A stretch of DNA of 64,000 nt from Nannobrachium achirus (Eukaryota; Chordata; Actinopteri; Myctophiformes; Myctophidae). The DNA is taken from positions 16,545,940-16,609,939 of the forward strand of contig OY997652.1 of NCBI GenBank assembly GCA_963921795.1, in the 5' to 3' direction. Position numbers and translations under genes: made by a program. Shown here in pieces: positions 3,651 to 53,229 of this stretch (its first letter is position 1; every line of letters starts with the position of its first letter). The notes below the pieces were generated by a model. That model ran no database searches. It was not told where the DNA came from and saw nothing but the letters and a program-made list of their open reading frames with translations.

Positions 3651-3845
3651 ATCGCTGTCGGGCAGAAACCTTTTATATCATGTCATCTTTTTATGTATTT
3701 TATTTTTCATAAATCAATGTCCCATTTTATACTTCATCGAATGACGGTGTCTGGCGAAAGTAGCGAAAATAGCAGATCTACAAGCACATAAACGCATTGC
3801 ATTGCCATGCGCTGTGAGCTTGTAGATCTGCTATGCTGTCTATTT
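3651..3845. mobile_element. TGTCGGGCAG-type MITE, copy 2 (decayed)
   Basis: Starts CTGTCGGGCAGAAACC. A well-formed shared hairpin sits at 3767-3834 (AGCAGATCTACAAGCACATA ... GAGCTTGTAGATCTGCTAT). The right end is eroded. Confidence 0.55.
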
Positions 3846-3944
3846 AAGGATGTCTGCCTATGACATGCCCAAAACAAACTCTCTCTGGGTTTTTGAGCGG
3901 TGCTAACCACTCCTACGTCTGGCATTGTGTGTATGCGCACGAAA

Positions 3945-4001
3945 CTCCTTGTATGGAGATACAGTAACTGACGTCACGGACAGAACGGCCCATACAAGGA
4001 G
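3945..4001. repeat. Short inverted repeat enclosing a CRE palindrome
   Basis: CTCCTTGTATGG (3945-3956) pairs with CCATACAAGGAG (3990-4001). The loop contains the palindrome TGACGTCA (3969-3976), a canonical CRE core. A related segment with TGACGTCA and GGACAGAACGGC recurs at 4403-4437. Confidence 0.6.
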
Positions 4002-4175
4002 ATATGCACGTGCGTCGTGAGAAAAGTAGTGATCATGCAGGTCAAAACTTTAAAGGCAATTACCGGTATTATTATTATTGTTACGATTGAAACAAATCAA
4101 ATACAGCTACCGTAATCTGTCAGACCAGATCAGTCTAAAAAAAGGTATATATAAAACCTTGAGAAGATTACCTAC

Positions 4176-4243
4176 CTGGATAGGTTCTCTCTCCATCATG
4201 TGCCCTTTTCCATCCCCACTCTGTTCTAAGGTGGAGTAGCCAT
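4176..4243 (-). CDS. arvcf: arvcf C-terminal exon
   Basis: A 68-nt exon (acceptor TTTACCAG|AT, donor ATCCAG|GTAGG). Encodes DGYSTLEQSGDGKGHMME, aligning with the DGYSTVDRRE segment of ARVCF; phase 0 out. Confidence 0.9.
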
Positions 4244-5535
4244 CTGGTAAATTAGAAAATACATACAGAGTGCAATTACAGATGGCAAACAGCAGGAACT
4301 AAGACAATGCGAGACATAGAAATTGTTGCATAAATGAATACCCTATTTATTTTTTATAATAATTCGTCATTCATTCATTCATAATTAGCAAAAATAGATG
4401 TCCGTATGGAGATAGCTGACGTCATGGACAGAACGGCATTATAATGACATGCCCGAAAATAGGGACACCAAGTTGAAAATATCGGTCAGTAGGTTTTATG
4501 AATATTGATCCAATGTAAATAAAGTATTAATTAACAAGGACTCATAATTAAATAATAACTACATTGGATCCATTAGAACACAGGCTCCTTTTTTCCATTT
4601 CAGAGATGCATTAACATCATAGTTGTCCCAGTGAGTGATGACAACATGCCACACTACTGTATCTTTACATCTGCTCACTGTGAGCAGATTTGTCTCCATA
4701 GCCTGTCTACTCTTTATTATACCCATAATATACCCCCATTCATTGCCTCATGCCATGTTTCATACTCGCACACAACCCCAACACATTGTTATCACACGCC
4801 CCAGACAGACAGAAAGATGGAGAGAGATACAGTAGGGCAGAGATTTGTGCTCTGCTGAGCACACCTTTCTAGTTTATTTTTCTTTGGAGATGAATATCTC
4901 AACCTGGTACAAGATTCATGCCACAAACAACACACTTTGCTTGAAGTGGCAGCACTCACTCAAAGTGAGATCCAAGAGAGCTAAAGGGCAATGCAAAATA
5001 TGTTCTTCATGCAAAGTAGAGCACTGTTATGCTCACCCCAAAGTTCATACATCATTCATATCCTGTTTTCCAAAAAAGTGGTATGAAACATTTCATTCTT
5101 TAAAACTCTATGCAGCTACAGTAGGCACAGACCACGGCTGGATGATTCTCTTGGATTGTTCCATGTGGGAGTATGGTTCCATTTGGGATGCACTCCCATC
5201 CACCAAGTCATCAGTGTGATATCAGTGTGATGTAAAATGGATTATGTGCCCATATATGGAGATCTCTGTATCTCTCAGTCCTTGTCCCTTTTTATGGGCA
5301 TATTGGTTGGATCGGCGGTTCTACTGAAATTCTTTGTTTTATACAACTATACATCATGCAAGTACAGTAACGGCAGGGATTAGTAGTTGGGATAATATAA
5401 ATCCTGGTGGTTTGTGTGGCAGCATAAACTTAAATCCATATCATTGGTTTATAGTTGGTCTGTGATTCAAGACTCAATTGAGTCAACTGCTTTTGTCACA
5501 ACATGATGAATATTTCAATGCTGTGATTTGCTTAC
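4244..5535. other. arvcf intron, mostly unique
   Basis: Intronic sequence holding one CCATATATGG palindrome (about 5252) followed by GAGATCTCTGTATCT, the flank found with the same motif at 24.6 and 44.7 kb. Small ORFs here show no family resemblance. Confidence 0.45.
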
Positions 5536-5620
5536 CTTGGTTTTTCTCCATGAGAGGTAGGGTGATGTCATCATTGCCTTGTTTTCCACTCTTTGATTTT
5601 TTAGTTCCTCCTGTAGTTGG
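5536..5620 (-). CDS. arvcf: arvcf C-terminal exon
   Basis: An 85-nt exon encoding PTTGGTKKSKSGKQ and NDDITLPLMEKNQG. Of two nearby AG acceptors, only CCCCACAG|CCAACTACAGG keeps the frame of the conserved DDITLPLMEK string. The donor is CCAAG|GTAAGC. Confidence 0.9.
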
Positions 5621-5667
5621 CTGTGGGGTTACATCATAACATCTTTAACATTATTATGCTTTGGTGT

Positions 5668-6135
5668 TTGTGGTTCTCAAAGTGAGGTCTGGGGACCCCC
5701 AGGTCATTGAGGGGGTTCCTGGGGGTCCCCAGCCCAGCTAACTTAGTTTATATAGTATCAATTAACCACTTTAACCCTAGAGGTTCACATCGAGAGTTCG
5801 GGCGGCCCTCACACCTACTACGTTGTACCGCCAATCCAACCGATAAGTCTATGTCATAGCAATCTGGCTAGCCATCGTCAAATAAAAGGGAAAAACAGCG
5901 TCCTCTCTGTTTTGTTCCTTTAGAGAGTCTGTTCTTGAGAGAATAATTTCATATTAATCTCTCAAGACCAGAACTTCCCACTAGCATGTAGAGCTGCTAT
6001 TTCCAAAAGAATAAATGTGAACAGATTTGGAATATTTCTGAAGCACAGATCTTGTATGGGGTCCCTGGCACAAAATATTTCCAGACAGTGGTCCACGGTC
6101 AAATACATATTAATTTGGGGGTCCTTGAACCATTG
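5668..6135. mobile_element. Decayed hAT-type MITE
   Basis: Begins GGTTCTCAAAGTGAGGTC and ends with GGGGGTCCTTGAACCATTG, the usual subterminal text of fish 'GGTTCTCAA' hAT MITEs. The right end stops about 40 nt before the arvcf exon at 6177. The inside contains a TTGACGATGGCTAGCC-type segment (inverted) that also occurs at 11640 and 55037. Confidence 0.45.
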
Positions 6136-6176
6136 TGTTAGACTGATTAACAGCAAGGGGATAGATTGGGACTTAC

Positions 6177-7316: not shown

Positions 7317-7370
7317 AGCCGATCTACAAGCTCACAACGCGCTGCGGCGGCCCTGTTGTGAGCTTGTACA
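7317..7370. repeat. Shared hairpin core
   Basis: GCCGATCTACAAGCTCACAA pairs with TTGTGAGCTTGTA; flanked on the left by CCCTCTACACCAAATCTC, the same flank seen at 30190 and 62900. Confidence 0.7.
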
Positions 7371-7822
7371 TTTTCAGCAAATCTTCCCCAAAGAATAGGG
7401 ATGCTCAGGCTAAACATAACAGAACTGACAGATGTTTCATCACACCTACTGTATACCAGCTCGTATGATTTCTGGCCGGTGTGTGTACAAACAGGGAAGC
7501 TGTGTTGTTAAGCTTTAATAAAATCGTAGATGTTTTACATATAGGCATATACTCATACCATCAATAAGCATTAGTCAAAATAGAAGATAAAATATCAAAG
7601 AAGCACGCATACATTACACACACAAACGCACGTGTGTGCGCACACAAATACACATACACAATTACACATACGCAGTTACGCACACACTCAGATGTTTCTT
7701 TCCATTGCTGATGAGACAGCCACGTATTTTGTAGGATCTTATTTTGCATTACATTGATATGATTGAGACAAATGCACGCACGCACACACACAGCAGTGTA
7801 GCATCTGTTCCATCTCACTCAC

Positions 7823-9969: not shown

Positions 9970-11330
9970 GTATATAGTATATACAAATACAAACCAAAAC
10001 ATTTAGCTTTTTCTCTGTTGGAAAATACACAGTATATAAACAACAGATGAGTGACAGTCAGAATAGTGGTTGTATTCCATTGGATGTCCTACTCCTTTTC
10101 CTGTCACAGCAGCTCATGAATCCAAGTCGCTGTTTCCACACAGCTGTACTTCCTCTAACAGATATGGGTCTGGTGTATTTGTGTTGCGGGCCGCATGATG
10201 CACACATACTGTACTGTGTGTGTCACAATATATTTGTGTATGTGTGTGTGGGGGGGAGGGGGGTGCATGAACGTTCATTCATCATACTGACACATTGTGT
10301 TGGTTGATTCGTGCATCATAGCTAATCTCGTGTTGGTCGATTTGTGTGTCTGTCCTGAGTATACTCCGGAGGGATGATGGGCAGGGGTAACATTGTATCA
10401 TTCACGGATTCAAAACATATTCGGGGAGTGTCTTGGTACTGGCAACGTGCGCAAAATGTTTGTTGATTGGTATCAATGATTTGCGAGTTTAGTTTCGGAC
10501 TCATGCACACATGCACACACTCACAAACAGACAGGGGCACACATAATCTCCACCTGGCCGTTACTTTGAGGCCTGGCCTTTGCGTTATGTCAGAGATAAT
10601 AAGGCTATGTGTATACTGTATGTCTTTCTGTCTACAAATCTGTCCACCAGAGGATGGTGTGCTTATATTTCATTGCTGTAATGGATCAAATACAATGACC
10701 TACAGTACAGTGGAAAATATAGGCCAGAACTCCAGTTCCCATGAGCCTGTTCACTGACCCTTTTGTACCCGTTCCCACTCCAACACACCTGCTCACATTT
10801 AAATACGGTACCGTAGACTAAATGAATCATTCTACCTGTCTACCCCTTTTCATTTATAGCCACACATTTTCCATCCTGTATTCCTCAGTTTTAATAAATG
10901 CGGATGCATCTATGCATTTTTGTTTGCAGTACATTACAGTACATTATTTGGTTGATTTTGGCCTATAGTGACATGCCCAAGATAGGGATGTCAAGTTCTT
11001 TCAATGAGAAAGGAAGGCCTCTGCTTTGTTCTGTTCTGACAGTTGTTCTGACAGCATAATTAGAGGATTGTTTGTCTAGTCCACCGCAACTCACCTTCAC
11101 ACATTTTGGTCATTTTGTACCACTTTCCCCCATACCAAGTACAAACACTTTAGTTGTGTTTCACTGTGCAAACTGGTAGTCAACAAAATTCAACATTGCT
11201 GCTTCAGGCCATATGACAGATTAAGAAAACGTGTATTAGTTGTTGACACGCTCTTTCAATAATGCATCACTCCTCAAGGAGTATATGTGCTGACTGCTAG
11301 GCCTAGAATTATTGAATGCTTTAACCAGTG

Positions 11331-11403
11331 AAAAATAGCAGATATACAAGCTCACAGCGCTGCACCGAGTGCCGCACTGCGAGCTTGTAGATCTGCTATT
11401 TTT
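11331..11403. repeat. Shared hairpin core in a hAT-type remnant
   Basis: AAAAATAGCAGATATACAAG pairs with CTTGTAGATCTGCTATTTTT. It is followed by a hAT-type tail (GGGGGTCCTTAACATG ... GGTTTGAGAACCACTGAC) ending near 11579. Confidence 0.75.
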
Positions 11404-11754
11404 GAAAAAGTTGTGAAAATGTGTGCAAATCTTTGAATGTATTTTCAAAGCGAACGTTTGTAACTCAAATTTTGCTTCTGGGTGGTCCCTGGAACTAAAT
11501 ATTTTGAGATGGTGGGTCCGTGGCCAAATAAATATCATTTTGGGGGTCCTTAACATGAAAAGGTTTGAGAACCACTGACATAGTAGTCTCTCAAGAACAG
11601 ATTAACTGAGCTCCAGTTACGTGAAAAGGACCTTTTCTTTGACGATGGCTAGCCATATTGCTGACATAGAAACATAGGGTTTTTCAAAAAATCTTAGAAG
11701 GATTCAAAAGACAATTATAGAATCGGGTCAAAATTCTAATTTTCACGATTTTTC

Positions 11755-11810
11755 AAAAATAGCAGATCTACAAGCTCGCAGCGCTGTGAGCTTGTATATC
11801 TGCTATTTTT
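11755..11810. repeat. Shared hairpin core, compact copy
   Basis: AAAAATAGCAGATCTACAAG and CTTGTATATCTGCTATTTTT with a very short GC-rich loop (CTCGCAGCGCTGTGAG). It is one of the cleanest copies. Confidence 0.8.
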
Positions 11811-12850: not shown

Positions 12851-13043
12851 CAGTGTTTCTCAAACTTTTACATTTCAAGGTTCCCCTTAACTCTGACAGT
12901 GTACAAATGGAACCAAATGGATCTGTTAGGGTCCATTTGGTTCCATTTGTACACTGTCAGAGTTACATACTTGTATGGGTCAATTTAGCTGACCACCCGA
13001 AAGGAACCCAGAGAGTCCCTGGAATCAACTTTGAGAAACACTG
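12851..13043. mobile_element. hAT MITE with perfect target duplication
   Basis: Ends CAGTGTTTCTCAAAC and CTTTGAGAAACACTG, exact 8-bp duplication ATGTAGAT on both sides (12843-12850, 13044-13051). The inside is a near-perfect palindrome (12891-12966) with arms such as CTGACAGTGTACAAATGGAA. A shorter relative lies at 17788-17893. Confidence 0.88.
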
Positions 13044-14512: not shown

Positions 14513-14951
14513 CAGTGGTTCTCAACCTGTGGGTCGGGACCCCCAGGGGGGGTCCCCAAATTATTTTTGGGGGTCCCCTGATGATTAACTTAATGTGCAA
14601 CATTGTTTTCTCACAAACCAACATAAAGTGTAGGCGTATAGAGGGAATCTGCACATTTCTAAAGTGACACTTTAAGGACATTTACTAAAATGACAAATTA
14701 AACATCGTCCAAATTGTCTAATATTAGAGGCAGAAATTGTGAAAATCTCCGATCTACATGCTCACAACGCCTCGCAATGCGAGGCGTTGGCGGTGGCGGG
14801 CGTTGTGAGCATGTAGATCTGCTATTTTCACAATAGAATTGTTTTATACAAAATGTAATGCCTCAACTCTTAGAGCTCGTCAGGGTGGGGGGTCCCCTGT
14901 TAAAATATGATTATTTTGGGGGTCACGGCCTGAAAAGGTTGAGGACTACTG
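14513..14951. mobile_element. hAT MITE carrying the shared hairpin
   Basis: Ends CAGTGGTTCTCAACC and GGTTGAGGACTACTG, with 8-bp flanks CTATAGAT and CTGTAGAT (one mismatch). The inside (14741-14829) holds the shared hairpin: GATCTACATGCTCACAACGC pairs with GCGTTGTGAGCATGTAGATC. Both arms carry the same C to A (CATG) change. Confidence 0.85.
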
Positions 14952-17060: not shown

Positions 17061-17153
17061 AATCGCTCAGAATAGGCACAGTTTCAGACTACTGCGTGAG
17101 CTGAGTCTGAGATCAGGCTAGTTGATAGGTACACAGCGACATGTGTTCTGTAC

Positions 17154-17632
17154 CTGTGACCAACTCTCTGACCTCCATGCTGCTGGACTTCCTGAGCAGT
17201 CGCACCAGGGCCGGGATGCCCTCGCAGACCTTGATGGCCACCTTGTTGTTGTGGTCCTTGCCGTAGGAGATGTTGCGCAGGGCACCGCAGGCCTTGCGGT
17301 GCACCTCGGGCTTGGGGTGGTCCAGGAGCTCCACCAGTATCGGCACCCCCATCAGCTGCCGGACCTCCTGCTTGATGCGGTCGTTCTCGTAGCACAGGTG
17401 CTGCAGGTAGGCGGCCGCGTTGGACTTGACCGGGTCCATGGGGTGGCTGAGCATGGATATCACCTCCCGCAGGTTGGGGTCTCGCCACCGGGGGTCCCGG
17501 CGAATGCTGTCCAGGCTGACCATGCTGCTGCGCTTGTGGGGGAACTGCAGGGTCTGGGCCCGGGACGCGGTCTGGTAGAACGGGTTTGAGTTGGCGTCCA
17601 CCTGGGGCATGATGGCGTCTTCATAGCCACCC
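17154..17632 (-). CDS. arvcf: arvcf exon, first armadillo repeats
   Basis: A 479-nt exon (acceptor CTCCAG|GGG, donor TCACAG|GTAC), phase 2 in, phase 1 out. Encodes [43 protein letters not shown] and [13 protein letters not shown]: the first repeats of the p120-type armadillo domain that bind the cadherin tail. It is GC-rich compared with its surroundings, as expected for a constrained coding exon. This is the best conserved part of the gene in the window. Confidence 0.95.
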
Positions 17633-17787
17633 CTGGAGAGACAGAGAGAGGAGCGTGTGTGTCAGAGAGACAGACGGGGAAGAGAGAGAAAGTGAGGGTG
17701 GAGTGTACTGGAGATTAATGTTGACATTAGCACAAACACAAACCCTCCGTTCAAGAAAGTAGCTGTATCTCAAGATAGTAGCTGTTT

Positions 17788-19943: not shown

Positions 19944-20026
19944 CCCATTCCCACTGGGCCAGATAAAAGATATCTGGAGAAATATCTCCAGATATCTTTT
20001 ATCTGGCCCAGTGGGAATGGGCCTTA
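19944..20026. repeat. Perfect 41-bp-arm palindrome
   Basis: AAGGCCCATTCCCACTGGGC and onward to CTGGAGA, loop AATA, then the exact reverse complement ending GCCCAGTGGGAATGGGCCTT. Probably the core of a foldback MITE. Confidence 0.85.
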
Positions 20027-20897
20027 AGCCTGATATATACTTCACCGCATGGTGGTTTCCCGCTTCGGAAATAGCCAATCTAAAAGCGCAAAGCATCTTG
20101 TATCCGTGATACGCTATGTTGGCTATTTCTGGCGCGCAACACTGCCATACAGTGGAGTATAAAGTAAGCATAATATTTATAATTATCACTGCGGGTCCTT
20201 GCAGCAAAATGTTGATAGAATATTAATGTGTATGTTATTTGGATGACTTAATTGCTACTAAAGAAAATTGCTTCAGGAGATTTTCTTTTTCATTTTTTTC
20301 TTTTTCTTTTTACAATTTACACATTGGCACACATGCTTACACGTGCAGATGCATGCATGTACACATACAGTATGCACACACAAATACACAACAAACACAT
20401 ACTGTACTACTACCATGTCCTGTAATTTTAGTTTCTTCTTTAGAGCTATTTAAATTTCTATCATTCCCTACGTGGTGATAAACTGGACCAAGCAAATGCA
20501 ATTTGCATTTGCATGGTCTAATTGAAAGACATAATTCCTCACAGCCTTCTCATCATCTCTAAACAATGTGAGGATGGTGATTGTAAGCACTGAACATTTC
20601 TGTACGAAGATGCTTCCAGTACTCAGACGGCTTCCTACACACATCAAAAATCAATGGGCTGTAAAGTGCAAACCATTAGCCTTTGTTAAAGGTAACCCCA
20701 TTATAGGGAGAGCCTATTAATATTTCAGTGACAGTGTGACACAAATTGAATGTCCTAAACTGCTTTAATGAGAAGCAAATGCTTGACCAAAACACCTACC
20801 ACAGAGAAGTTAACACGGCCACTGCATTGTTTCATTAACCCGTTAAAAACTGGGAAAGCATCTGTGTAGTTTTAGCTTTCAGCGTTGGCTATTCAAG

Positions 20898-21003
20898 TAT
20901 AGCAGATGTACAAGCTCACAGCGCGGCACAAAGTATAGCAGATGTACAAGCTCACAGTGTGTCACTTCATGCCGCGCTGCAGGCTTGTACAGGTGCTATT
21001 TTT
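20898..21003. repeat. Shared hairpin core, arm duplicated
   Basis: The left arm GCAGATGTACAAGCTCACAG occurs twice in tandem (20901 and 20937), followed by a single right arm GGCTTGTACAGGTGCTATTT. Confidence 0.7.
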
Positions 21004-26017: not shown

Positions 26018-27625
26018 TTAAGCTGGGGAGGATTTAGCTTTCGCATCAGGCATCTTGACTTGCACATCATCCATTATGTTGCTATTGCTAGCTCCTTCCA
26101 CCTCCTCCCATGTTTCCTCCTGATCAGACTCAGATTCTTCCTCAGTTTGAGAGTCAGTGACTGAAGACTCCCATGTTTCCTCCTGATCGGAGTCCTCCTC
26201 AGTTTGAGATTCAGTGACTGAAGAACCTCCCTTGGGCTGCTTTGCATCAGGAGGACACTCCATCTTCCCCAAATTCATCGCGTCCTCGCTGAAGGCCTGG
26301 TCAGCCCAGTGCAGATTCTCCACAAGCTCCTCTGCCGGCTGCTCCCTCACTCTATTGGGCTTCATCTGGAGTACATGGGCCCTGTTCAGTCTGCTGTAAT
26401 TGGCCTGCCGTCTTGGGATATGCTGAGGTTGTTCCACATCTCTCAGCTGGGACTGTTCTACAGCCAGGGAAGGGGGATCCCTTTGATGCTGGCGCAGTGG
26501 TGCAGTGATGCCATACCGGAAAGCCCCCTGAACACAACCATACAGAAACACCAGGATGGAGAGTACAACAGCGAGGAGGACAGGAATCTGAAAGGTCACA
26601 GGTAGGTCCTTGAGGAGCGCCCTGAGAAATTCATTGATCCCCTGGCCAACATGCTTCAGAGGCTCTGTGATGAAGGTGGTTATGGTGAACGATATGGCCT
26701 TGGTAGGAGGTACCAACATGATTGGGTTGACAATGACACCTTCATAGTATCTCTTACAGGGGTCGTCTTGAAGAGTCCATGTAGTTCTGAACCACTCCCG
26801 CAGGCTGTCGCTCCAGCCAATCTCCTTCATCCCAGTGCATTTGTCACTGACACTGGACATTTTCACAATGTTGTTTTGGTGCTCAGCAAAAGCAATCTTG
26901 TAGAGGTAGAACCAGTTCCAGAAGATACTGATAAAGAAGCAGATAGCAAACATTTTCTTGAATTGGACAAACCAGGAGACCCCCGACCACAACTGAGTGC
27001 AAATGGTGGTGACTATGACCATCACGCACAGGGACACCCTTAAGACAGTGTTGAGATCCACACCAAAGGTGTCCTCAAAGTGCCACTTCCAAGGTGTGTA
27101 GTCATGCGGTTTGAGATCAATGAATATTTGGCTGATAGCATTGTCCAGCGCCCCTGTTATTCTGCTCTCCTCACCCTCAAGAAGCATCCGAATCTCCACC
27201 ATAGCTTGCGGGGACAGTTTCACTTTGGCATTATAAAAGATGTCCCCAGGGTCACTGGGCACACCGATTCTGTCTATTTCCCTCAGGAGCCTGGTGAGAA
27301 ATCGTTTGAACACTGGCGTGCACGTGGGCTGATCTTGAAGAAATGCAATCTTCTTGTTCTGATCTTCAACTTGTCTTTGCAACACTTCTACTTTGTGGTT
27401 ACAAACTGGCAGCTCATCTTTGGAGTCCTGAGTGTATTCTCTTCTTTCTATTGGCAGACTCGGATAGTTTGATGGCTCTACGGGTTTTCTCATGGTTTTG
27501 GTGGTGGGATCATAGTTGAGCATATCATATGGGTCAATCCAGTCGTCGTGTTGTCCCATCACACCATGCAGTGACATGCTGCATACCAGCAGCACAATGA
27601 TCAGTATGCTAGCACAGGAAGTCAT
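26018..27625 (-). CDS. clcc1: clcc1-like chloride channel, intronless retrogene
   Basis: Uninterrupted 535-codon ORF. The first ATG is at 27625 in a strong AAAATGA context; the TTG three codons upstream is not the start. It matches CLCC1, an ER multi-pass anion-channel-like protein, over its full length. It has a signal peptide (ASILIIVLLVCSMSLHG) and the mature start DDWIDPYDMLNYD. The core contains WKWHFEDTFGVD, WNWFYLYKIAF and VNPIMLVPPTKA, then FITEPLKHVGQG. Three hydrophobic segments fall near residues 194-213, 225-246 and 347-365. The acidic tail contains a duplicated motif (TESQTEE/DSDQEETWE, then TDSQTEE/ESDQEETWE). CLCC1 is multi-exonic in vertebrates, so an intact single-exon copy inside an arvcf intron points to retroposition. 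The length is close to the human protein (about 550), with no frameshift, so it may well be functional. Confidence 0.9.
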   Translation of the reverse strand: MTSCASILIIVLLVCSMSLHGVMGQHDDWIDPYDMLNYDPTTKTMRKPVEPSNYPSLPIERREYTQDSKDELPVCNHKVEVLQRQVEDQNKKIAFLQDQPTCTPVFKRFLTRLLREIDRIGVPSDPGDIFYNAKVKLSPQAMVEIRMLLEGEESRITGALDNAISQIFIDLKPHDYTPWKWHFEDTFGVDLNTVLRVSLCVMVIVTTICTQLWSGVSWFVQFKKMFAICFFISIFWNWFYLYKIAFAEHQNNIVKMSSVSDKCTGMKEIGWSDSLREWFRTTWTLQDDPCKRYYEGVIVNPIMLVPPTKAISFTITTFITEPLKHVGQGINEFLRALLKDLPVTFQIPVLLAVVLSILVFLYGCVQGAFRYGITAPLRQHQRDPPSLAVEQSQLRDVEQPQHIPRRQANYSRLNRAHVLQMKPNRVREQPAEELVENLHWADQAFSEDAMNLGKMECPPDAKQPKGGSSVTESQTEEDSDQEETWESSVTDSQTEEESESDQEETWEEVEGASNSNIMDDVQVKMPDAKAKSSPA

Positions 27626-27701
27626 TTTTCCCAAGCTGACCAGCTAGTTCTCAGGCAACTCAGGATCCTTTTATGTGGTGTTTCACTATGCGGAGAGTCT
27701 C

Positions 27702-29960: not shown

Positions 29961-30417
29961 CAGGGGTCTTCAACGTTTTCAGGCCAAGGAACCCTTTGTT
30001 GAGAGAGAGAGATGAAGCAGGGACTCCCACATCCTGTTCATAGATTCCATATAGTTTCATCGTTTGGCAACACAATCATCAGTGTATTTTGGGTTCATGT
30101 CAATTTGTGTTTTCAGATATTTAACCACTTGAACCGTCAATACTTAATAAACTTGACCTTTCACTCTGTACTTAGTCTGCTCTTTTTCCCCTCTACACCA
30201 AACCTCTTTGCCAATAATAGCCGATCTACAAGCTCACAACGCTTCGCAGCACGAAGAGTTGTGAGCTTGTAGATCTGCTATTTTTGGCTACAGTTCTCAG
30301 AATATGGACACTAGAGTTCAAGTTGTTAATATAAAAAGGATTGGAAGATTTGGAGGACCCCCTGTAGTAACTCTGAGGACCCCCTAGAGGTCCCGGACCC
30401 CCTGTTGAAGACCCCTG
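29961..30417. mobile_element. hAT MITE carrying the shared hairpin
   Basis: Ends CAGGGGTCTTCAACG and GTTGAAGACCCCTG; exact 8-bp duplication GTCTAACC at 29953-29960 and 30418-30425. Internal hairpin at 30214-30285 (ATAGCCGATCTACAAGCTCA ... GTGAGCTTGTAGATCTGCTA). Confidence 0.9.
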
Positions 30418-30782: not shown

Positions 30783-31695
<913 letters not shown>

Positions 31696-31943
31696 TCATT
31701 GTCGGGCAGAAACCTTGTATCTCTAAGTTTCAAATGTGTATGTTTTTTGGTAAAGTAAAGCCCTGCTTCATTATACACGACTTTCGCACAAGACTAGTGA
31801 AAATATAGCTATCGACAAGCACACAACGCCTGGCGATGCGAGGCGTTGTGTGCTTGTAGATTGACTATTTTCAATCTTTTTCAATATAACAAAAATAGGA
31901 AGGTTTTGGACAAACAAGGTTTCCACCCGACAACGACGATGTG
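31696..31943. mobile_element. TGTCGGGCAG-type foldback MITE, complete copy
   Basis: TIRs TTGTCGGGCAGAAACCTTGT and ACAAGGTTTCCACCCGACAA. The shared hairpin lies at its centre, 31799-31871 (ACAAGCACACAACGCCTGGC ... GAGGCGTTGTGTGCTTGTAG). Confidence 0.85.
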
Positions 31944-34213: not shown

Positions 34214-34726
34214 CATACATGGGCAACTGGCGGCCCGGGGGCCACATGCGGCCCCCACTGGCCCGCAGGTAAATACCAGAATACTGATAGTATATTAAAT
34301 TGATTTCAGCTGTTACAATTCCAAACATAACCTGCTTTAATTCCATCAGTCTATTTTAGTACTAGCATAGTAGTACTAAAATGTATTTTTTTTATGTCCA
34401 ATTTATTTGTATTTAGGTTCATAAAGTTAACATGAGTATATAACTAAATGCGTTTGAAATGAAATCAAAATGTTACATTTCAGGATTCCAATTAAAAAAT
34501 AACAAAAAATTATTCAGGATTCCAATTCAAAAGAAGCAAAAATAGCCGATCTACAAGCTCAAAACGCATCACGCTGCGTTTTGAGCTTGTAGATCTGCTA
34601 TTTTTGCTTCTTTTGTATGAGATACTAGAATGACAAAGTAGGACTTGCAATATGCAATGTGGCCCCCTTGAGTGAAGGTGGAAATATAGTGGCCCTCGAC
34701 ATCATCAAAGATGCCCACTCCTGTAC
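34214..34726. mobile_element. hAT-type element carrying the longest hairpin
   Basis: Ends roughly ATGGGCAACTGGCGGCCC and GATGCCCACTCCTG, with flanks ACTAGAAT and TACTAGAT. The internal hairpin 34529-34614 has arms of about 40 bp, from AAAAGAAGCAAAAATAGCCG to CTATTTTTGCTTCTTTT. Confidence 0.65.
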
Positions 34727-35111: not shown

Positions 35112-35629
35112 GTGGCATATCTAGCATTGTGGATGATCATGAGCCCAGTAGAGATTAGGATAACCACTGATTGAAAATGGTACTGTGCTATATGTGAGGG
35201 TGGTCCAGCTTTTTGTTTTGTTTTGTAGCTATTTTCACATACCATGTTTAGGCTTATACTGGCTTTTTATTTTGTTTTGTAGCTATTTTGACATACCATG
35301 TTTAGGCATCCAAGAGCACCATTCCTAAATTAGCTGAACTTACTCGAAACTCTTCAAGAAGCAAATATGCTCTACAGTTGTGTGACAACGTATACAGTAC
35401 GTTTAAAGACGTTAGTCTTAGGAGAAAATTGGCTTTTAGTTTTTTTGCCACTTTTTCTCCCCAATTTCTCGTTAATGCCAATTGATTCATCCCCACACAC
35501 ACTTGTATTTTATCCTACTCACTCACTTAACCGTGACTGTGAGGACCCCCCCACCGGAAGACACGGGCTGACAGGTGCCACCACAGCCCGTAGGAATACA
35601 TGCAGTGACAAAGTGACACCTCCCCCTCA

Positions 35630-35831
35630 CTGTCGGGCAGAAACCTCGTATCTCCAAGTGATCGTCGCACAAAACTAGTGAAAACAGCAGATCTACAAGC
35701 ACACAACGCCTCGCGATGCGAGGCGTTGTGTGCTTGTAGATCGGCTGTTTTCACTAGTTTAGTATATTTTTTAGATGATAAATACAAAATGAACGGTTTT
35801 GAACATACAAGGTTTCCACCCGATAACGACA
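35630..35831. mobile_element. TGTCGGGCAG-type foldback MITE
   Basis: TIRs CTGTCGGGCAGAAACCTCGT and ACAAGGTTTCCACCCGATAA. The hairpin 35671-35760 extends outward to AAACTAGTGAAAACAGCAGA and TCGGCTGTTTTCACTAGTTT. Confidence 0.85.
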
Positions 35832-35874
35832 ATATACTAGTGTTGTTGCTGCTCTTATATTACCATTATTACTG

Positions 35875-35960: not shown

Positions 35961-36642
35961 ACAAAGCTGGATGCACCTCGATGGATTGGAACACAACCTC
36001 TGCGGTGGTGGGAAGCCACTTCACCACTGTGCCACTCGAGCATTGGCATGTACCGGTAGTTTTGAATGTGGTTTGACGCGCACGTCACTCTGCTGTAACC
36101 AGACTTGATTTCGCTTTTTGTTTCGATTATCTTTTCAGTGGATTTGATCGTATCCACTACTGACAGGATTGTCAGAACTAGAAGTCTTTCATATTCCATT
36201 AACTTACTGAGTTGTTAAACTGACTCCCCGCAATTGTCCGCCAGTAAATGTATTTTTAGACTTTTATCAAAACTAAATATAGAAAATACGTTATTCTTTG
36301 GGTGTTTTAAATGTATAATTTGTGCTGCAGCTGTTCTATTAACTCTAAATTCCCATTTTGAAGGCAGACGCATTAAACACTGCAGTCATTGCAATTTTTG
36401 TAATTAAGTAAGTCAGGAGCCAAAGAGCATCCGGCTCATTAGCGCAAGAGCTTGATCACACAAAATCTAGATTTTTCAACCAGGCCACATTTCCATGCAA
36501 TGAAATGTGTCAGAGGGAGGCAGAGAGGACAAGTGGAACACACAGAACACATCTAGAGAATCCTAACTTGAGCACTTATGGGTATATGATTGGAACCGTA
36601 GTCATGCGGGGCTAAAGTGACTATAAAGTGGCTAAAGTTGTC

Positions 36643-36778
36643 TTCTTGTAGATCTGCTATTTTCACTCGTTTTCTGCGACAGCCCTGTATGATGAAGCAG
36701 GCCTTTACATTACGTAAAAACATAGAAATCTGAAAATTGGAGATACAAGGTTACATGCCTGACAGTGACGATTTGTAT
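36643..36778. mobile_element. TGTCGGGCAG-type MITE, right half only
   Basis: Starts inside the hairpin (TCTTGTAGATCTGCTATTTT), continues CACTCGTTTTCTGCGACAGC and TGATGAAGCAGG, and ends near GATACAAGGTTACATGCCTG. It shows the full symmetry of the family. Confidence 0.6.
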
Positions 36779-39343: not shown

Positions 39344-39756
39344 CAGGGGTGTCACAAGGGGAGGGGGAAAGTGGGACTGAGTTACTAGGGCCCATGGTGG
39401 ATGTGGCCTTAATTATTTTATACTTTAGCTATTGAAAAATAGCAGATACACAAGCTCACAGCGTGGCACTGCGAGCTTGTAGATCTGCTATTTTTGTAAA
39501 GTCGTGAAAATGTGTGCAAATCTTTGAATAATATGTATTTTTAAAGCTAACATTTGTAACTAAAATTTTGCTTTGGGGGGGGGGGGGGGGGGGGGGGGGT
39601 TCCATGGCTAAATACATATCATTTTGAGGGTCCTTCACATGAAAATGTTTGAGCACCACACTGACATAGAAACCCCCTCCCCCTATGAAGAACATTCATG
39701 GGGGGCCCGCAGTGAATCCTTGTACCCAGGGCCCAGAATTTGGTGCGACACCCCTG
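39344..39756. mobile_element. hAT MITE carrying the shared hairpin
   Basis: Ends CAGGGGTGTCACAAGG and GGTGCGACACCCCTG with exact 8-bp duplication GAAATAGA (39336-39343 and 39757-39764). The hairpin lies at 39434-39496, then a hAT 'GGTCCTTCACATGAAAATG' text and a G-run (39577-39599). Confidence 0.88.
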
Positions 39757-40504
39757 GAAATAGATGCAGCTGGAGCTGCATTGAGAAGCCCACACTTAGT
39801 TTAGTTCTGTCACCCACATTCAGGACAACAGGAGACTTAAGGAAAGAGGGATGGAAAAGTACAGAAATATACTGCACGAAGTACCAAGACAATTCATCAT
39901 AGGCTACTGCACACAAACATATTAGGCTATCAAATAGTACCAGGGAAAAAAATATGTTATTCCCTGCGAGACACTCATCTTTGTCTTCATGAGACCTATT
40001 TAAACAAGAGGCTGACGCAAGGAACGGCTAATGCCACTTATGTTTGATTTATACTCCCATCGTACAACGGTGTTGCCGGCCGGAAATAGCAGATCTACTG
40101 TACAACCACATAACACAAAGTATAAATCAGCCTTAATGAGAGTGTTTGTAAAACAGACAAGCAAGAATAATGAGATATAAACCAGGAATAACCAGGAACC
40201 TTCTCCAAGCTAAAGCTCTCATCTGCCCTATAGAACCCATCCCAAAACTACTGGAAGAAATATTTCATGTCCTAGTTTGTCTCAAAATAATGTTATGTCT
40301 TCTCAAAATGGTAGTTTGTGTTCAAAATATGTTGTGCTGAAATGACCCCCACGTACAGTGTAGTACACACTTGAGCCACACATATGTACCACTGATAGAC
40401 ATTTCTAAGAACCAGTTGAACACTGATGCTAAATGGTACTAACTTGCTTGCACAAAAAGTAGAACATATAGTAAGATAGCAATCTTCATCAGATCCAGGT
40501 TCTG

Positions 40505-45329: not shown

Positions 45330-45651
45330 TTAAAGGAGTAGTTCACCCCCAAAATGATTTTTTTTCTATTGATTACTCATGCCATGGAGAGTAGAGTTCA
45401 ATAATATTTTTGGGTTTTTGTCACATTCCTAAGACAAAAATGTGATTCGAGTAAATTTACCCCCATTGATTCCGGATGGGGACCCGTTTCGAAACGGGTC
45501 CCCATCCGGAACGAATGGGGGTAAATTTATTGTTATCATATTTTTGTCTTAGAAATGCGACAAAAAACTAAAAATATGATTGAACTCTAGTCTCCATGGC
45601 GTGACTAATCAATAGAAAAAAAGTCATTTTGGGGGTGAACTACTCCTTTAA
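45330..45651. mobile_element. piggyBac-type foldback MITE
   Basis: TTAA, AGGAGTAGTTCACCCCCAAA ... TTTGGGGGTGAACTACTCCT, TTAA. The arms pair along nearly the whole length, with GACCCGTTTCGAAACGGGTC at the centre. Its right TTAA (45648-45651) is also the first base of the tandem duplication that follows. Confidence 0.88.
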
Positions 45652-45699
45652 GTGCACATTTGAAATATACTGTATATTTGATATATACTGTGTGTGTGT

Positions 45700-45719
45700 A
45701 TATATATATATCATTTGTA

Positions 45720-45784
<65 letters not shown>

Positions 45785-45805
45785 ATATATATATATATAT
45801 ATACA
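45700..45805. repeat. (TA)n microsatellite
   Basis: Two TA runs separated by ACAATAT; duplicated at 48885-48985. Confidence 0.97.
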
Positions 45806-45956
45806 GTATTCAGTACTGTTACTTAAAAAATAATAATAAATTCATATTGGTACTTTAAAAACACTGCAATCGTTTGAAAACCTAAGTTACTTTCTTTTGA
45901 TTTGATATGACAAAACATACAGTACATTAGCCACTGCAGCCCTGTATATACTCCAG

Positions 45957-46030
45957 CCATTTGCTGATCTACAAGCTCACAACGAGTCACAAAGCGAGGC
46001 GTTGTGAGCTTGTAGATCTGCTATTTTCAA
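45957..46030. repeat. Shared hairpin core in block A1
   Basis: GCTGATCTACAAGCTCACAA pairs with TTGTGAGCTTGTAGATCTGC; duplicated at 49140-49210. Confidence 0.8.
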
Positions 46031-46352
46031 ATGTTGAAATTTTTATACATGATTTGAAAACTTGTGAAATGGGACATTCCGCTTAATGAGTACTTTTACT
46101 TTTAGTACTGTAAGTATATTTTGATGCAAATATTTTGTACTTTTTGTGCGGAATAAAGTAAAATCTGAATACCGGACTTGTAAACGAGTATTTCTACATT
46201 GTGATATTGATGCTTTTACTTAAGTAAATTATGTATTTCTTTCCACCACTGGTTGCCCACCAGTCCTCTTACATTACTGTGTTACCTTAACTTTTCTTTC
46301 AAGGTTAAAATACTAAAGAATTAGTCAAGAGCAGTGGAAAAGGATCCAACAG

Positions 46353-47250
46353 AGCGATGGTCTAGTCTAGTGGTATAAAGATCAGACTCTCAGTGCAAAG
46401 GTCCCATGTTCAAATCTCAGTCCTCCCACATTGCTGTAATACATTTATTTTCAACATTAAAATACAAAAGAACTACTCAAAATATCTATTGGCATATGGT
46501 TTAGCTGACTGGTGATTGGACTCTCAGTTCAAAGGATCCATGTTCTAATCCGAGTCCTACTAGGAATAAAGTTAATACCTCTGATGAGAGATGGTCTACT
46601 CTAGTGGTCTAAAGATCAGCCTCTCAGTGCTGAGGTTCCAGGTTCAAAACTCAGTCCTCCTACATTGCTGTATTACTTGGACCTTTTTCAAGGCTAAAAT
46701 ACAAAAGAATTACTCAAAAGCACCAGAAGATATCTGCATTGAGAGATGGTGTAGTGGTGTAAAGATTAGACTCTCAGTGTAGAGCTTCTGTGTTCGAATG
46801 TCACTCCTCCTATGTTGCTGTTTTACTTTAACATTTCTTTCAAGGTTAAAATATAAAAGAGTTAGTCAAAAGCACTGGAAAATGCGTCTAGTGGTCTAAA
46901 GATAAACCCTCAGTTCAGAGGTCTTATTTTCAAATCCGAGTTCTCGTATAGATCATTGTTACTTTTCAAGGTTAAAATACAAAAGAAGTATTCAAAGCAC
47001 CAGTTAAAGTCTGCTGTGAGAGATGGTGTAGTGGTTTAAACACCAGACTCCAAATGCAGAGGTCATATGTTCAAATCCATTCCAGGAGTGCTTTGACCTT
47101 TTCAAGGCTAAAATAGAAGAGAAAACTCAAAAGCACCAGGAGAAACCTGTTGAGGGCCCAAAGGTGCCTTGGCTCAATGGTATGGTCGCTTGATCGGTTG
47201 TCCCTGTTTCAGGCAGGTTTCAGACAGGTTCAAGTCCCATGCCCAAGGTA
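46353..47250 (+). repeat. Array of tRNA-like units, plus strand
   Basis: Six units about 100-150 bp apart (starts near 46353, 46495, 46584, 46740, 46881 and 47020). Each has an A-box-like TGGTNTAGTGGTNTAAAGA, an ACTCTCAGT middle and a B-box-like GTTCAAATCC. A spacer follows with TTTTCAAGGTTAAAATACAA and ACTCAAAAGCAC. A seventh, different unit (47158-47250, CCTTGGCTCAATGG ... GGTTCAAGTCCC) ends the array. Acceptor and T stems do not pair well, so these are decayed or SINE-like, not functional tRNAs. Confidence 0.65.
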
Positions 47251-47634: not shown

Positions 47635-47997
47635 CCACTAGTTGAGCAGCTTCCACAGTACAGCTTTAACTTTACCAACTCAAAGCTAACATACTAAAGA
47701 ACACTTCAACATTACTAAGAGATGCCTGCTACGAACAGACAGACATAGCATGCATGCACCGTTCAAACATTATGTCACGTCAGAAAAAAGGCGAAATACC
47801 TAGAAAAAGGTGAGTCCCAAAATCAAATACCCAAATTTCCTTGTCTGCGGACAACATCGATGCTGATTGGCCGCTTCTTTCCTTGATTCCTCGATTCCTC
47901 CTCGATTTGATTGTTCTTTTTGTTGAAAGGTGTGAGATCTAGCTCTCTCTCTCTCTAAAATCAAGGCGAAACACCTGAAAAAAGTGAGTCCCATCAA

Positions 47998-48830
47998 GGC
48001 GAAACACCCGGAGGGAAAAAAAACTCATGCAAATGAGGTCCATCCTGTCAGCCTAGAATCTCTGACTTGGAATTCATTTGCATGAGTTATTTTTTTCCTC
48101 CGGGTGTTTCGCCTTGATGGGACTCACTTTTCTCCGTGTGTTTCACCTTGATGGGACTCACTTTTCTCCGGGTGTTTCACCTTGATGGGACTCACTTTTC
48201 TCTGGGTGTTTCGTCTTGATGGGATGGGACTCACTTTTCTCCGGGTGTTTCGTCTTGATGGGGGACTCACTATTTTCCAGGTGTTCCGCCTTGATTTTGG
48301 GACTCACTTTTTGGGTATTTTGGGGTATTTTGGGACTCACTTTTCTCCGGGTGTTTCGCCTTGATGGGACTCACTTTTCTCCAGGTGTTTCGTCTTGATG
48401 GGACTCACTTTTCTCCGGGTGTTTCGTCTTGATGGGGGACTCACTATTTTCCAGGTGTTCCGCCTTGATTTTGGGACTCACTTTTTGGGTATTTTGGGGT
48501 ATTTTGGGACTCACTTTTCTCCGGGTGTTTCGCCTTGATGGGACTAACTTTTTTCCAGGTGTTTCGCCTTGATTTTGGGACTCACTTTTTGGGGAATTTT
48601 TGGGGATTTTGGGACTCACTTTTCTCCGGGTGTTTCGCCTTGATGGGACTCACTTTTTTCCAGGTGTTTGGCCTTGATTTTGGGACTCACTTTTTGGGGA
48701 ATTTTTGGGGATTTTGGGACTCACTTTTCTCCGGGTGTTTCACCTTGATGGGACTCGCTTTTCTCCAGGTGTTTCACCTTGATGGGACTCACTTTTTTCC
48801 AGTTTTTTCGCCTTGATTTTGGGACATACT
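47998..48830. repeat. Foldback plus GGGACTCACTTTTCTCC minisatellite, block B1
   Basis: A palindrome (CATCAAGGCGAAACACCCGG ... CCGGGTGTTTCGCCTTGATG, 47993-48119) followed by about 20 units of about 34 bp. Each unit combines GGGACTCACTTTT, TCCGGGTGTTTCGCCTTGAT and variants with TTTTGGGGAATTTTTGGGGA. The minisatellite unit is the palindrome's right arm. Confidence 0.92.
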
Positions 48831-48902
48831 TTAAGTGCACATTTGAAATATACTGTATATTTGATATATACTGTGTGTGTGTATATATATATATCATTTG
48901 TA

Positions 48903-48965
<63 letters not shown>

Positions 48966-49535
48966 ATATATATATATATATATACAGTATTCAGTACTGT
49001 TACTTAAAAAATAATAATAAATTCATATTGGTACTTTAAAAACACTGCAATCGTTTGAAAACCTAAGTTACTTTCTTTTGATTTGATATGACAAAACATA
49101 CAGTACATTAGCCACTGCAGCCCTGTATATACTCCAGCCATTTGCTGATCTACAAGCTCACAACGAGTCACAAAGCGAGGCGTTGTGAGCTTGTAGATCT
49201 GCTATTTTCAAATGTTGAAATTTTTATACATGATTTGAAAACTTGTGAAATGGGACATTCCGCTTAATGAGTACTTTTACTTTTAGTACTGTAAGTATAT
49301 TTTGATGCAAATATTTTGTACTTTTTGTGCGGAATAAAGTAAAATCTGAATACCGGACTTGTAAACGAGTATTTCTACATTGTGATATTGATGCTTTTAC
49401 TTAAGTAAATTATGTATTTCTTTCCACCACTGGTTGCCCACCAGTCCTCTTACATTACTGTGTTACCTTAACTTTTCTTTCAAGGTTAAAATACTAAAGA
49501 ATTAGTCAAGAGCAGTGGAAAAGGATCCAACAGAG

Positions 49536-50432
49536 CGATGGTCTAGTCTAGTGGTATAAAGATCAGACTCTCAGTGCAAAGGTCCCATGTTCAAATCTCA
49601 GTCCTCCCACATTGCTGTAATACATTTATTTTCAACATTAAAATACAAAAGAACTACTCAAAATATCTATTGGCATATGGTTTAGCTGACTGGTGATTGG
49701 ACTCTCAGTTCAAAGGATCCATGTTCTAATCCGAGTCCTACTAGGAATAAAGTTAATACCTCTGATGAGAGATGGTCTACTCTAGTGGTCTAAAGATCAG
49801 CCTCTCAGTGCTGAGGTTCCAGGTTCAAAACTCAGTCCTCCTACATTGCTGTATTACTTGGACCTTTTTCAAGGCTAAAATACAAAAGAATTACTCAAAA
49901 GCACCAGAAGATATCTGCATTGAGAGATGGTGTAGTGGTGTAAAGATTAGACTCTCAGTGTAGAGCTTCTGTGTTCGAATGTCACTCCTCCTATGTTGCT
50001 GTTTTACTTTAACATTTCTTTCAAGGTTAAAATATAAAAGAGTTAGTCAAAAGCACTGGAAAATGCGTCTAGTGGTCTAAAGATAAACCCTCAGTTCAGA
50101 GGTCTTATTTTCAAATCCGAGTTCTCGTATAGATCATTGTTACTTTTCAAGGTTAAAATACAAAAGAAGTATTCAAAGCACCAGTTAAAGTCTGCTGTGA
50201 GAGATGGTGTAGTGGTTTAAACACCAGACTCCAAATGCAGAGGTCATATGTTCAAATCCATTCCAGGAGTGCTTTGACCTTTTCAAGGCTAAAATAGAAG
50301 AGAAAACTCAAAAGCACCAGGAGAAACCTGTTGAGGGCCCAAAGGTGCCTTGGCTCAATGGTATGGTCGCTTGATCGGTTGTCCCTGTTTCAGGCAGGTT
50401 TCAGACAGGTTCAAGTCCCATGCCCAAGGTAC
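49536..50432 (+). repeat. Array of tRNA-like units, duplicated copy
   Basis: Same units as 46353-47250, almost without change. Confidence 0.65.
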
Positions 50433-50639
50433 ATGGAGGACCATCGTGGAGGGGTGTCCCTCCCCCTGTTTCCTGAGAGCTAAAGGTAGGGGGTTATATC
50501 TGAAAGAACTCTGTCCAACAAAAGTTTTACAGAACATTTTTTTAACAACATGCCTTGAGACCACTGGAAGAATTTGAGAAAATTGAGACAATTTTAGCCT
50601 TCAAAAGATCAATGTACTCCAGAGATGGGCTGTAGGTTG

Positions 50640-51709
50640 AGTGGGATTTGAACATGGAACCTCTTAACTGAGAGTCTGAGCCTTAGACCATTAGGCCATC
50701 TCTCTCACTGTAAATGTGCTCTAGTGCTTTTGAGTACTTATGTTGTATTTTTTAACCTTGAAAAGATCCAAGTAATAGAGCAGAATCATAGTAGGGTGAC
50801 TGGTTTTTGAACACAGAACCTCTGCACCCAAAGTCTGATCTTTAGACCACTACACCATCTCCAACCTAAAAAACATCAGGTGCTTTTGAGTAATTATTTT
50901 GTACTTTACCCATGAAAATGAAAAAGTAAAACAGCAATGTAGGAGGATTGAGATTTGTACATGGAACATCAGCAATAAGAGTCTGATCTTTAGACCACTA
51001 CTCCATCTCTCACTAACTTTTGAGTGCTCTTGAGTAATTCTTTTGTATTTGAACCTTGAAAAGGTCCAAGTAAAAGAGCAGTTACCTATGGGAGGACTGG
51101 GATTTGAACATGGCACCTCTGAACTGAGAGACCAATTATCAGTCCACTAGACCATATGCAGGGTTGACAACAATAGAATGTCAGTATCAGCAAATTTTCT
51201 ATTTCTATTTTTTTAAGGGGGTAGGGGGGAGATTCCCTAAACGCCTTGGCCCAAAGGTGCCTTGGCTCAATGGTGTGGTGCACTTGATCGGTTGTCCCTG
51301 CTACAGACAGGTTTCAGACAGGTTCAAGTCCCATGCCCAAGGTAAACAGGGACCATCGGGAGGGGTGTCCCTCCCCCTGTTTCCTGAGAAATAAAGGTGT
51401 AGTAAATTCAACTGACTTTAATTAGTTCAGAATGTTAGGCTTGAAAATGTCAAAATACTCCAGCAATGAACCATAGGAGAAATGGGAATTGAACACTGAA
51501 CCTGTGAACTCAGAGTCTGACCGTTACACCACTACACCGTCTCTCCCTGGAGGTGTTGCCTAGTGCTTTTAACTAATTATTTTGTATTCTGTAAAATCTG
51601 TATATTTTGTATTAAAGGAAGGTCCAAGTAAAACAGCAATGATTGACTGAGATTTGAACATGGCACCTCTGAACTGAGAGACCAATCATCAGTCTACTAC
51701 ACTATATGC
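50640..51709 (-). repeat. Array of tRNA-like units, minus strand
   Basis: Six units of the same family in reverse orientation (about 50640-50708, 50795-50863, 50941-51013, 51093-51159, 51479-51546 and 51641-51709). Each carries GGGATTTGAACATGG (complement of the B-box) and TTAGACCACTA. A plus-strand unit of the CCTTGGCTCAATGG type lies among them at 51247-51335. Confidence 0.65.
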
Positions 51710-51759
51710 AAGTTTACCAACCTTGGACTGTCAGTATCAAAAAGATTTCCATTTTTTTT

Positions 51760-52348
51760 GTAAAGGGGGACTCCCCAACCCGGGGTCTGAGGGTCCTCCC
51801 CCAAGAACTTAATCTTAACATATCTATTTTCCTGTGTTCTGTTGAATTTTGCACCAATAATTCGCCATGCAACTCCTTGCAACCATTTTAAGGTCAACCG
51901 CACCAAAGCAACTATTTGCAACTGCCTTAATGGTTGCATGATGTTGCAATGCCAATCAACATCACAACAAGGCTCGACCTGTTGTCCGGGACAACTAATA
52001 CATATTTAAACGTAGCCTTCTGGCTCTTGGTTTCACCTTTTCTATGATGCTCATAGCAGCTTTGTGCTGTATGCAGACTATGGATGGTGGAGTGGAGGCG
52101 GCCAGGGGGGGGGGGGGGTCTTAATTATTTGTAAAAATAAAAAAAATAAAAGAAGAAAAAATATATAGATATTTATAGGGGTGCCCTGAGCCAAAAAAAA
52201 AGTTTGGGAACCCCTGGTCTACATATATGTTCAAATCCTGGTTGTCCTGTGGTTCAATGTTGGAGTGTTTAAAGTTATACTATGTAACTTTTTTAATAAA
52301 AAAAATTAAAAAATCAAATCGCTAAAGTTTTAGAACACCCACTTCGTT
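51760..52348. other. Rest of block C
   Basis: Includes a decayed hAT end (AGTTTGGGAACCCCTGGTCT, near 52200) and a TTAAAGTTATACTATGTAAC text (about 52268), common at the ends of a fish MITE type. Confidence 0.4.
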
Positions 52349-52573
52349 AATTTCAGCCCCAAAAGCCTTTTCTTTATATGTTTTCTACATAGCCTTGACA
52401 GGGCTGTATTTCCCGGCAAAATGATGTCATCTCCCACATGATACACTACCGGCCAATCACAGCGCAGATCATACACCACCGGTCCCTTCAGGAATTAGCT
52501 TCCCTCAGCAACTGTGTTTACAGTACATTGGTGAAGGAATCTTGATTGCTACTCCCTCAATCCTGGTCTAAAA

Positions 52574-52684
52574 ATGATGGGAGACGGCTCTACGGACGCG
52601 TATCGGCGAGGCGGAGGTGGTCGCGGCGGCCGCGGTGGCGACTCCGGGCGAAAAACGGGCGGAAAAAAGCAATACCGCTACTGA
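52574..52684 (+). CDS. Small RGG-rich ORF, block B2 (36 aa)
   Basis: Same start and end as the ORF at 47494, without the ten-residue PRTPVLVVRG segment. The reading frame is preserved. Confidence 0.3.
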   Translation: MMGDGSTDAYRRGGGGRGGRGGDSGRKTGGKKQYRY

Positions 52685-53002
52685 CCACTAGTTGAGCAGC
52701 TTCCACAGTACAGCTTTAACTTTACCAACTCAAAGCTAACATACTAAAGAACACTCTTCAACATTACTAAGAGATGCCTGCTACGAACAGACAGACATAG
52801 CATGCATGCACCGTTCAAACATTATGTCACGTCAGAAAAAAGGCGAAATACCTAGAAAAAGGTGAGTCCCAAAATCAAATACCCAAATTTCCTTGTCTGC
52901 GGACAACATCGATGCTGATTGGCCGCTTCTTTCCTTGATTCCTCGATTCCTCCTCGATTTGATTGTTCTTTTTGTTGAAAGGTGTGAGATCTAGCTCTCT
53001 CT

Positions 53003-53229
53003 GAGGGCCCTATTATGATCCAGGTCTTATGCCTTATGCCTTAACTTCTTTGCCTTTTTTTACTATTTTGTTTTTGTTTTTTAAATATTTCAAATAGCTG
53101 ATCTGCAAGTTCACAACGTGCAGATGTAGATCAGCATTTGAAGTATTTAAAAATGTTTTTCAAAATAGTGAAAAAAAGGTAAAGAAGTTAAGGCACAAGG
53201 CATAAGACCTGGATCATAATAGGGCCCCT
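53003..53229. mobile_element. Foldback MITE inserted only in block B2
   Basis: Ends GAGGGCCCTATTATGATCCA and TGGATCATAATAGGGCCC. Arms pair inward (TTAACTTCTTTGCC / GGTAAAGAAGTTAA) to a central hairpin of the shared type (53092-53146, GCTGATCTGCAAGTTCACAA). Block B1 has the empty site, a plain CTCTCTCTCT run (about 47943). Confidence 0.85.

Follow-up and report, generated by a model that had tools for sequence, protein, structure and literature searches.

The window analysed here is a 64,000-nucleotide stretch of the genome of the lanternfish Nannobrachium achirus (contig OY997652.1, positions 16,545,940 to 16,609,939 of the forward strand), in which a short DNA hairpin recurs within miniature inverted-repeat transposable elements (MITEs) that have different ends. 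The initial annotation had described about 15 such hairpins, and a scan for the arm AGCAGATCTACAAGCTCACA or its complement bears this out, with 25 matches in the window at up to three mismatches compared with none in each of 20 first-order Markov resamples. At up to five mismatches, an arm or its complement is present at all 14 main positions that had been listed; a match at 24480 in the same scan was excluded as chance-like. The exact-arm hairpin GATCTACAAGC..GCTTGTAGATC occurs six times, versus zero in 100 shuffles. Palindrome alignment revealed symmetric arms of ~22 to 103 bp at 14 of 16 centres, the best symmetric pair at centres 3306 and 7317 being something other than the core.

Host elements in the window

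Coordinates below are those of the window, and strand is given where one is assigned. Target site duplications (TSDs) of 8 bp had been claimed for three MITEs of the hAT type and are present at each of them: 14513–14951 (+; terminal inverted repeat (TIR) CAGTGGTTCTCAAC, TSD CTATAGAT/CTGTAGAT, hairpin 14747–14823), 29961–30417 (+; TIR CAGGGGTCTTCAAC, TSD GTCTAACC twice, hairpin 30219–30279) and 39344–39756 (+; family H3, TIR CAGGGGTGTC, TSD GAAATAGA twice, hairpin 39441–39489). One of 60 random control loci also passed the TSD test; as it scored the same as 29961–30417, it may be that element itself. Two further passes were discounted, one being a GT repeat at 7317 and the other the TIR sequence itself at 53096. 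A fourth hAT host, of the TGGGCAACTGGCGGCC type, lies at 34214–34723 (+; hairpin 34544–34599), where the duplication read by eye is TACTAGA(A)T; other genomic copies carry CTCTAGGC, GTCTAGAA, CTGTACAC and similar duplications. Among the families that we distinguish, 8-bp TSDs are found in five hAT MITE hosts (H1, H2, H3, H5 and H7), all with short TIRs that are mostly of CAG type (for H5 by eye), H7 beginning with TAGGG and H5 with CATACATGGG. Judging by their ends, read by eye, H4, H6, H8 and H9 appear hAT-like.

Further hAT-like hosts in the window are a remnant at 11308–11583 (−; end CAGTGGTTCTCAAAC, hairpin 11337–11397) and an element at 45831–46249 (−; hairpin 45962–46022), placed by one end, CAGTGGTGGAAAG at 46249. 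The latter has a 100% identical duplicate at 49012–49430 (−; hairpin 49143–49203). The hairpins listed earlier at 45957 and 49140 represent one event, a 1,077-bp segment with one hairpin host being duplicated here at 100% identity (45646–46722 and 48829–49903). Within the H3 element, the stretch 39411–39669 matches 11307–11583 at 77%, including the hairpin and terminal sequence of the other family, so that hairpin-bearing pieces do get enclosed by new ends.

Members of the B family (TGTCGGGCAG; ends ATATCGTC...GACGATAT) lie at 3122–3457 (+; with a degenerate hairpin at 3306–3361 that had not been listed), 31690–31943 (+; hairpin 31805–31866) and 35627–35835 (+; hairpin 35686–35746), together with a fragment bearing half a hairpin at 36639–36772 (−) and a left part cut by the window end at 63878–63979 (+); the core at 3771–3832 belongs to a damaged B-type element with its left end near 3646. 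The F family, with GGGCCC ends, comprises the fully palindromic GGGCCCTATTATG element at 53005–53227 (hairpin 53096–53134) and a palindromic copy at another genomic locus (L028:6840–7064); the former is an insertion, since a paralogous stretch at 47950/47953 lacks it. Inspection by eye of the displayed B and F copies revealed no 8-bp target duplication. A third kind of host has TATATAC- or TTTATAC-type ends and is represented by a palindromic element at 20024–20173, centred on a diverged relative of the hairpin at 20073, and by a short TTTATAC-type element at 40039–40133 that resembles it (75% over 53 bp) and carries a 15-base half arm.

The remaining copies are cores in various states of damage: one at 7317–7376, whose right arm has decayed and whose left flank resembles that of the 29961 family, one in reverse orientation at 11761–11804, from the same flank group as 11337, and one at 20901–20999, listed earlier at 20898, with its left arm duplicated (at 20901 and 20937). 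Among the fragments listed previously, that at 36643 is a half hairpin, while that at 40083 reduces to the 15-base match and that at 62920 (62920–62945) is weak, adjoining a left flank like that of 29961. The idea that hairpin subtype follows host holds for most copies; the exception is one hAT family in which the hairpin is like that of H8 in one copy and near that of H5 in another. A hAT-like MITE at 12851–13043 (CAGTGTTTCTCAAAC ends) has a different long palindrome, GTACAAATGGAACCAAATGG, at its centre, and central palindromes are therefore not limited to this hairpin.

Genome-wide abundance and hairpin anatomy

Across the 1,658,514,493-bp assembly, arm matches at up to three mismatches number 373,660 on the forward and 374,018 on the reverse strand, compared with 44 and 47 for a reversed-pattern control. 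This corresponds to ~29 matches per 64 kb versus 25 here, so the window is typical of the genome, and would amount to ~374,000 hairpin equivalents if each had two arms; arms also occur alone. A form containing a C/T mismatch accounts by itself for 14,040 and 14,241 exact-arm matches, against none on either strand in the control. In 200 kb sampled at fixed, uninformed genome positions we found 51 hairpins or halves, of which 31 could be assigned to flank families (B 13, H4 5, H6 3, H1 2, H2 2, H5 2, H7 2, H8 1, F 1) and 20 had no assigned family.

The commonest full form is exactly 61 nt long, from AGC to GCT, with a 29-bp stem and a 3-nt loop; it is seen across hosts in 32 of 58 full hairpins from fetched DNA and the window, and for some of these loci an arm or an H5 flank had guided the choice. 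The 29-bp stem continues outward through bases resembling GTGAAAAT into a symmetric part that is characteristic of each host, such as TAGTGAAAAC for B, AAAAGAAGCAAAAAT for H5 and GTTGCGTGCTGAAAAT for H8. The resulting outer stem of ~8–16 bp is less conserved than the 61-nt palindrome and symmetric nonetheless. Two variants of the structure were observed elsewhere in the genome. At L004:593–740, a half arm of the hairpin has become a small satellite, with a 25-bp unit, GTGACTTACAGCTTGTAGATCTGCT, repeated six times in tandem, and at L007:1501–1600 (the same hairpin as L047) an H8 hairpin is followed by a second stretch resembling a right arm, GTAGATCGGCTATCTTC, which looks like a double copy of part of the arm.

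Outside this genome, exact scans for the hairpin sequence gave no match in the viral collection and one chance match, inside a bacterial contig, in the prokaryote collection, and four forms of a 14-base core led to one unrelated paper on an alga in the portions of the full-text literature consulted. An Rfam search with the hairpin yielded no match at the gathering threshold. The best sub-threshold match was MIR2600 (52.8 bits, gathering threshold 98), which we take, also from the titles of plant papers, to be a plant family; with a longer stretch covering the same DNA it disappeared, and MIR9471 matched the hairpin at 30219 instead (32.3 bits, gathering threshold 150). A microRNA reading was rejected on these results.

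Flanks, decay and covariation

When 133 flanks from the window and from genome loci were compared, they fell into 17 clusters and 45 single flanks, one cluster being the tandem array at L004 and two the duplicated arms of 20901/20937. Hairpin-anchored comparison within the window also gave separate groups, with the cross-group pairs 34544/36658 and 14747/45962 scoring 14 where the null maximum was 12. As gapped alignments through the hairpin run into the flanks of other families, the flanks were tested alone, over 110 bp from a point 8 bp beyond the hairpin and with one copy for each of ten families. Of 180 pairs between families, two scored above all 200 resamples, with 0.9 expected, and six same-family control pairs matched strongly on one or both sides.

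Meanwhile, the hairpins of seven families differ at 2–12 of 58 stem sites (site 4 left out), all of them double changes except two single changes in H4, and the interior is thus more similar between families than the remainder of the elements. Together with the chance-level flanks, this places the hairpins closer to each other than vertical descent of their hosts suggests, unless master copies were selected. It had been foreseen that the hairpin would be no more than the centre of one old family if all flanks were diverged members of one ancestral element, and this was not what we found in the flanks of ten families beyond 8 bp. The description of the hosts as unrelated survives in part: flank families are separate, but hAT or hAT-like elements account for most of the hosts that were identified, and some of these share end sequence. 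A C/T mismatch shared at stem site 4 had been considered as proof that whole hairpins were inherited as units, and was dropped because site 4 varies within family B.

Hosts with and without the core were also compared, as the initial annotation had proposed. All 12 aligned H5 copies retain the hairpin or part of it, several without one arm; nine of these were found through the left flank, independently of the hairpin. It is missing from one of three H1 copies and from one H4 copy (L032), and one of five aligned H2 copies consists of the left half, ending at the hairpin. The few copies without it in H1, H2 and H4 look like deletions at the hairpin base, and no copy in a pre-module state was found. 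In 13 H5 copies compared with their majority sequence, the hairpin differs at 28 of 617 sites and the flanks at 236 of 5,434 (p 0.84); without copy L036, whose right half is rearranged and which raises the hairpin figure, the counts are 20 of 560 and 222 of 5,098 (p 0.44). The H5 hairpin therefore decays approximately like its flanks, indicating that copies decay without clear protection and that the hairpin is not intrinsically slow. In B, where the copies compared were partly selected by their hairpin and are to that extent biased, divergence is somewhat lower in the hairpin, at 42 of 724 sites, than in the flanks, at 161 of 1,963 (p 0.04, or 0.002 without site 4).

Pairing between the arms is retained through change. 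Paired double changes occupy 90 cells, compared with 33.6 after shuffling. A set of 51 such cells comprises 12 kinds, eight of them transversions, which make up 36 of the 51 cells; the 72 one-sided changes divide into 42 transitions and 30 transversions. No excess of G-T over A-C mismatches was found in either of two counts (26 versus 34, and 10 versus 15). Symmetric, transversion-rich changes with no G-T excess argue against an RNA fold maintained through G-U steps and for copying from arm to arm. The suggestion that the hairpin is a small-RNA precursor consequently finds no backing in the Rfam search, the mismatch counts or the decay of H5.

Origin of the shared hairpin

The hairpin is shared between MITE families with separate ends and is present in very high copy number. 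We hold with middling confidence that it is a small module shared within these families, and not a gene, in a joint account that includes both its copying into hosts and the restoration of its pairing by template switching. The module would have been amplified together with its MITE hosts, presumably by host transposases, and families would acquire it by copying. During internal deletion of a parent transposon, in gap repair or replication, synthesis may switch into an existing hairpin, which would then become the join between the left and right halves of the element. Pairing would be restored through template switching from arm to arm, a step that we propose because families differ from each other by symmetric double changes, for the most part transversions. 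Once inserted, copies would decay in an apparently neutral manner, often losing one arm or the whole hairpin. Template switching has been reported to create and to repair stems (PMC8794818; PMC8604942), and the hairpins of Monttinen and Loytynoja (2022, PMC8794818) likewise show stem-keeping double substitutions, explained there by arm-to-arm copying, in RNA genes, whereas those described here lie in transposons. This account suggests that short hairpins can pass between transposon families. The earlier proposal that a module enters the centres of palindromic elements is sustained by the flank families and chance-level flanks, but entry into a host was not itself seen.

A bolder version, which we regard as tentative and rather improbable, is that hairpin tips are exchanged between unrelated transposons, with replication stalled in one palindrome copying the tip of another, so that a successful hairpin sequence would spread as a parasite of palindromes in any superfamily. 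If so, the hAT family whose copies carry H8-like and H5-like subtypes would be a product of such exchange.

Several observations weigh against the shared-module account. Among the few host copies compared, none was found in a pre-module state, and 20 of the 51 sampled hairpins are without an assigned family. Hairpin-anchored gapped alignments reach ~40–60 bp, and once ~100 bp, into the flanks of other families at 64–75% identity, and an anchored match between two groups extended over 58 bp (score 14, null maximum 12); these extensions were not borne out by the flank-only test, in which each family was represented by a single copy. End sequence of 65–68 bp is common to some hAT hosts at ~70% identity, and the gradual shift of outer stems from family to family would fit descent from a single ancestral palindrome as well. 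The consensus hairpins of H1, H8 and H9 are based on few copies. Eight further two-sided changes do not pair, and double-change cells are not independent events, so that related sequences can exceed such shuffles.

Some of these points favour an alternative, descent from a single old palindromic MITE, with the hairpin as its conserved centre and the families as descendants whose arms and ends diverged or were replaced. The predominance of hAT and hAT-like hosts, the shared end sequence, the extended alignments and outer stems that look like variants of one stem (e.g. TAGTGAAAATAGC) would all be expected, but the ends of B, F and the 20024/40039 type are unlike, flanks beyond 8 bp are at chance level next to hairpins that differ at few sites, and the H5 hairpin is not slow to change; we consider this descent unlikely. 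We judge it equally unlikely that the hairpin is under selection in active elements, where it would serve as an RNA structure or as a DNA hairpin that enhances transposition; selection might also act on master copies alone. Pairing kept across families, with covariation above both shuffles and slid structures, would agree with selection, and a role in transposition has been proposed for the shared interior of coral CMITEs (PMC2872659). Against this stand the transversions, which cannot pass through G-U, the lack of a G-T excess and of an Rfam match at the gathering threshold, and the H5 hairpin divergence, which is not significantly lower than that of the flanks; the lower divergence of the B hairpin comes from copies partly chosen by that hairpin.

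Least probable, and in our view very doubtful, is that the hairpin is a tiny mobile element in its own right, one that landed in the middle of other MITEs. It is a recurrent unit of nearly constant length, and the sampled hairpins without an assigned host leave room for solo copies. In the copies inspected, however, the immediate flanks are inverted instead of directly repeated, so that the hairpin shows no target duplication of its own, and an intact pre-insertion site was not found among the few host copies compared.

Known systems share parts of the arrangement described by the shared-module account. MITEs of the hAT type with CAGTGGTTCTCAAC- or CAGGGGTCTTCAAC-type ends are also short, with TIRs and 8-bp target duplications, but here several families that differ in their ends have the central hairpin in common. 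Angel-type MITEs of zebrafish are palindromic fold-back elements with an inverted-repeat structure, and going by this general description the likeness lies in that form. The nearest published case found is that of the CMITEs of Acropora corals (Wang et al. 2010, PMC2872659), in which an internal region of unknown origin is shared by families whose TIRs differ and is better conserved between them than the TIRs are. These elements are ~100 bp long, have TTAA duplications of the piggyBac type and are estimated at ~1,600 copies in A. millepora. Common to both systems is an interior shared by MITE families with different ends. The shared part here is a hairpin, though, with 747,678 arm matches, and its hosts span hAT and unlike ends, whereas CMITEs belong to one superfamily; piggyBac ends with TTAA were not encountered, hAT-type duplications being found instead. 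The coral case was the only one found among the PubMed Central papers listed, subscription journals being outside this scope, when shared hairpins or interiors in fish or hAT MITEs were sought.

How MITEs originate from their parents, and what fills their middles, are open questions. One marked module in many families acts as a natural label: each family may preserve a single acquisition, and the way in which it happened may be recorded where hairpin and host meet. The symmetric transversions additionally form a large natural data set on palindrome repair in an animal genome.

Other features of the window include, on the minus strand, an MCLC (CLCC1-like) coding exon at 26018–27643 and a delta-catenin-like armadillo exon at 17113–17661. 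A 273-codon open frame with no Pfam match lies within 56558–58194, surrounded by nested long inverted repeats with arms of 169, 102 and 109 bp at 98–100% identity.

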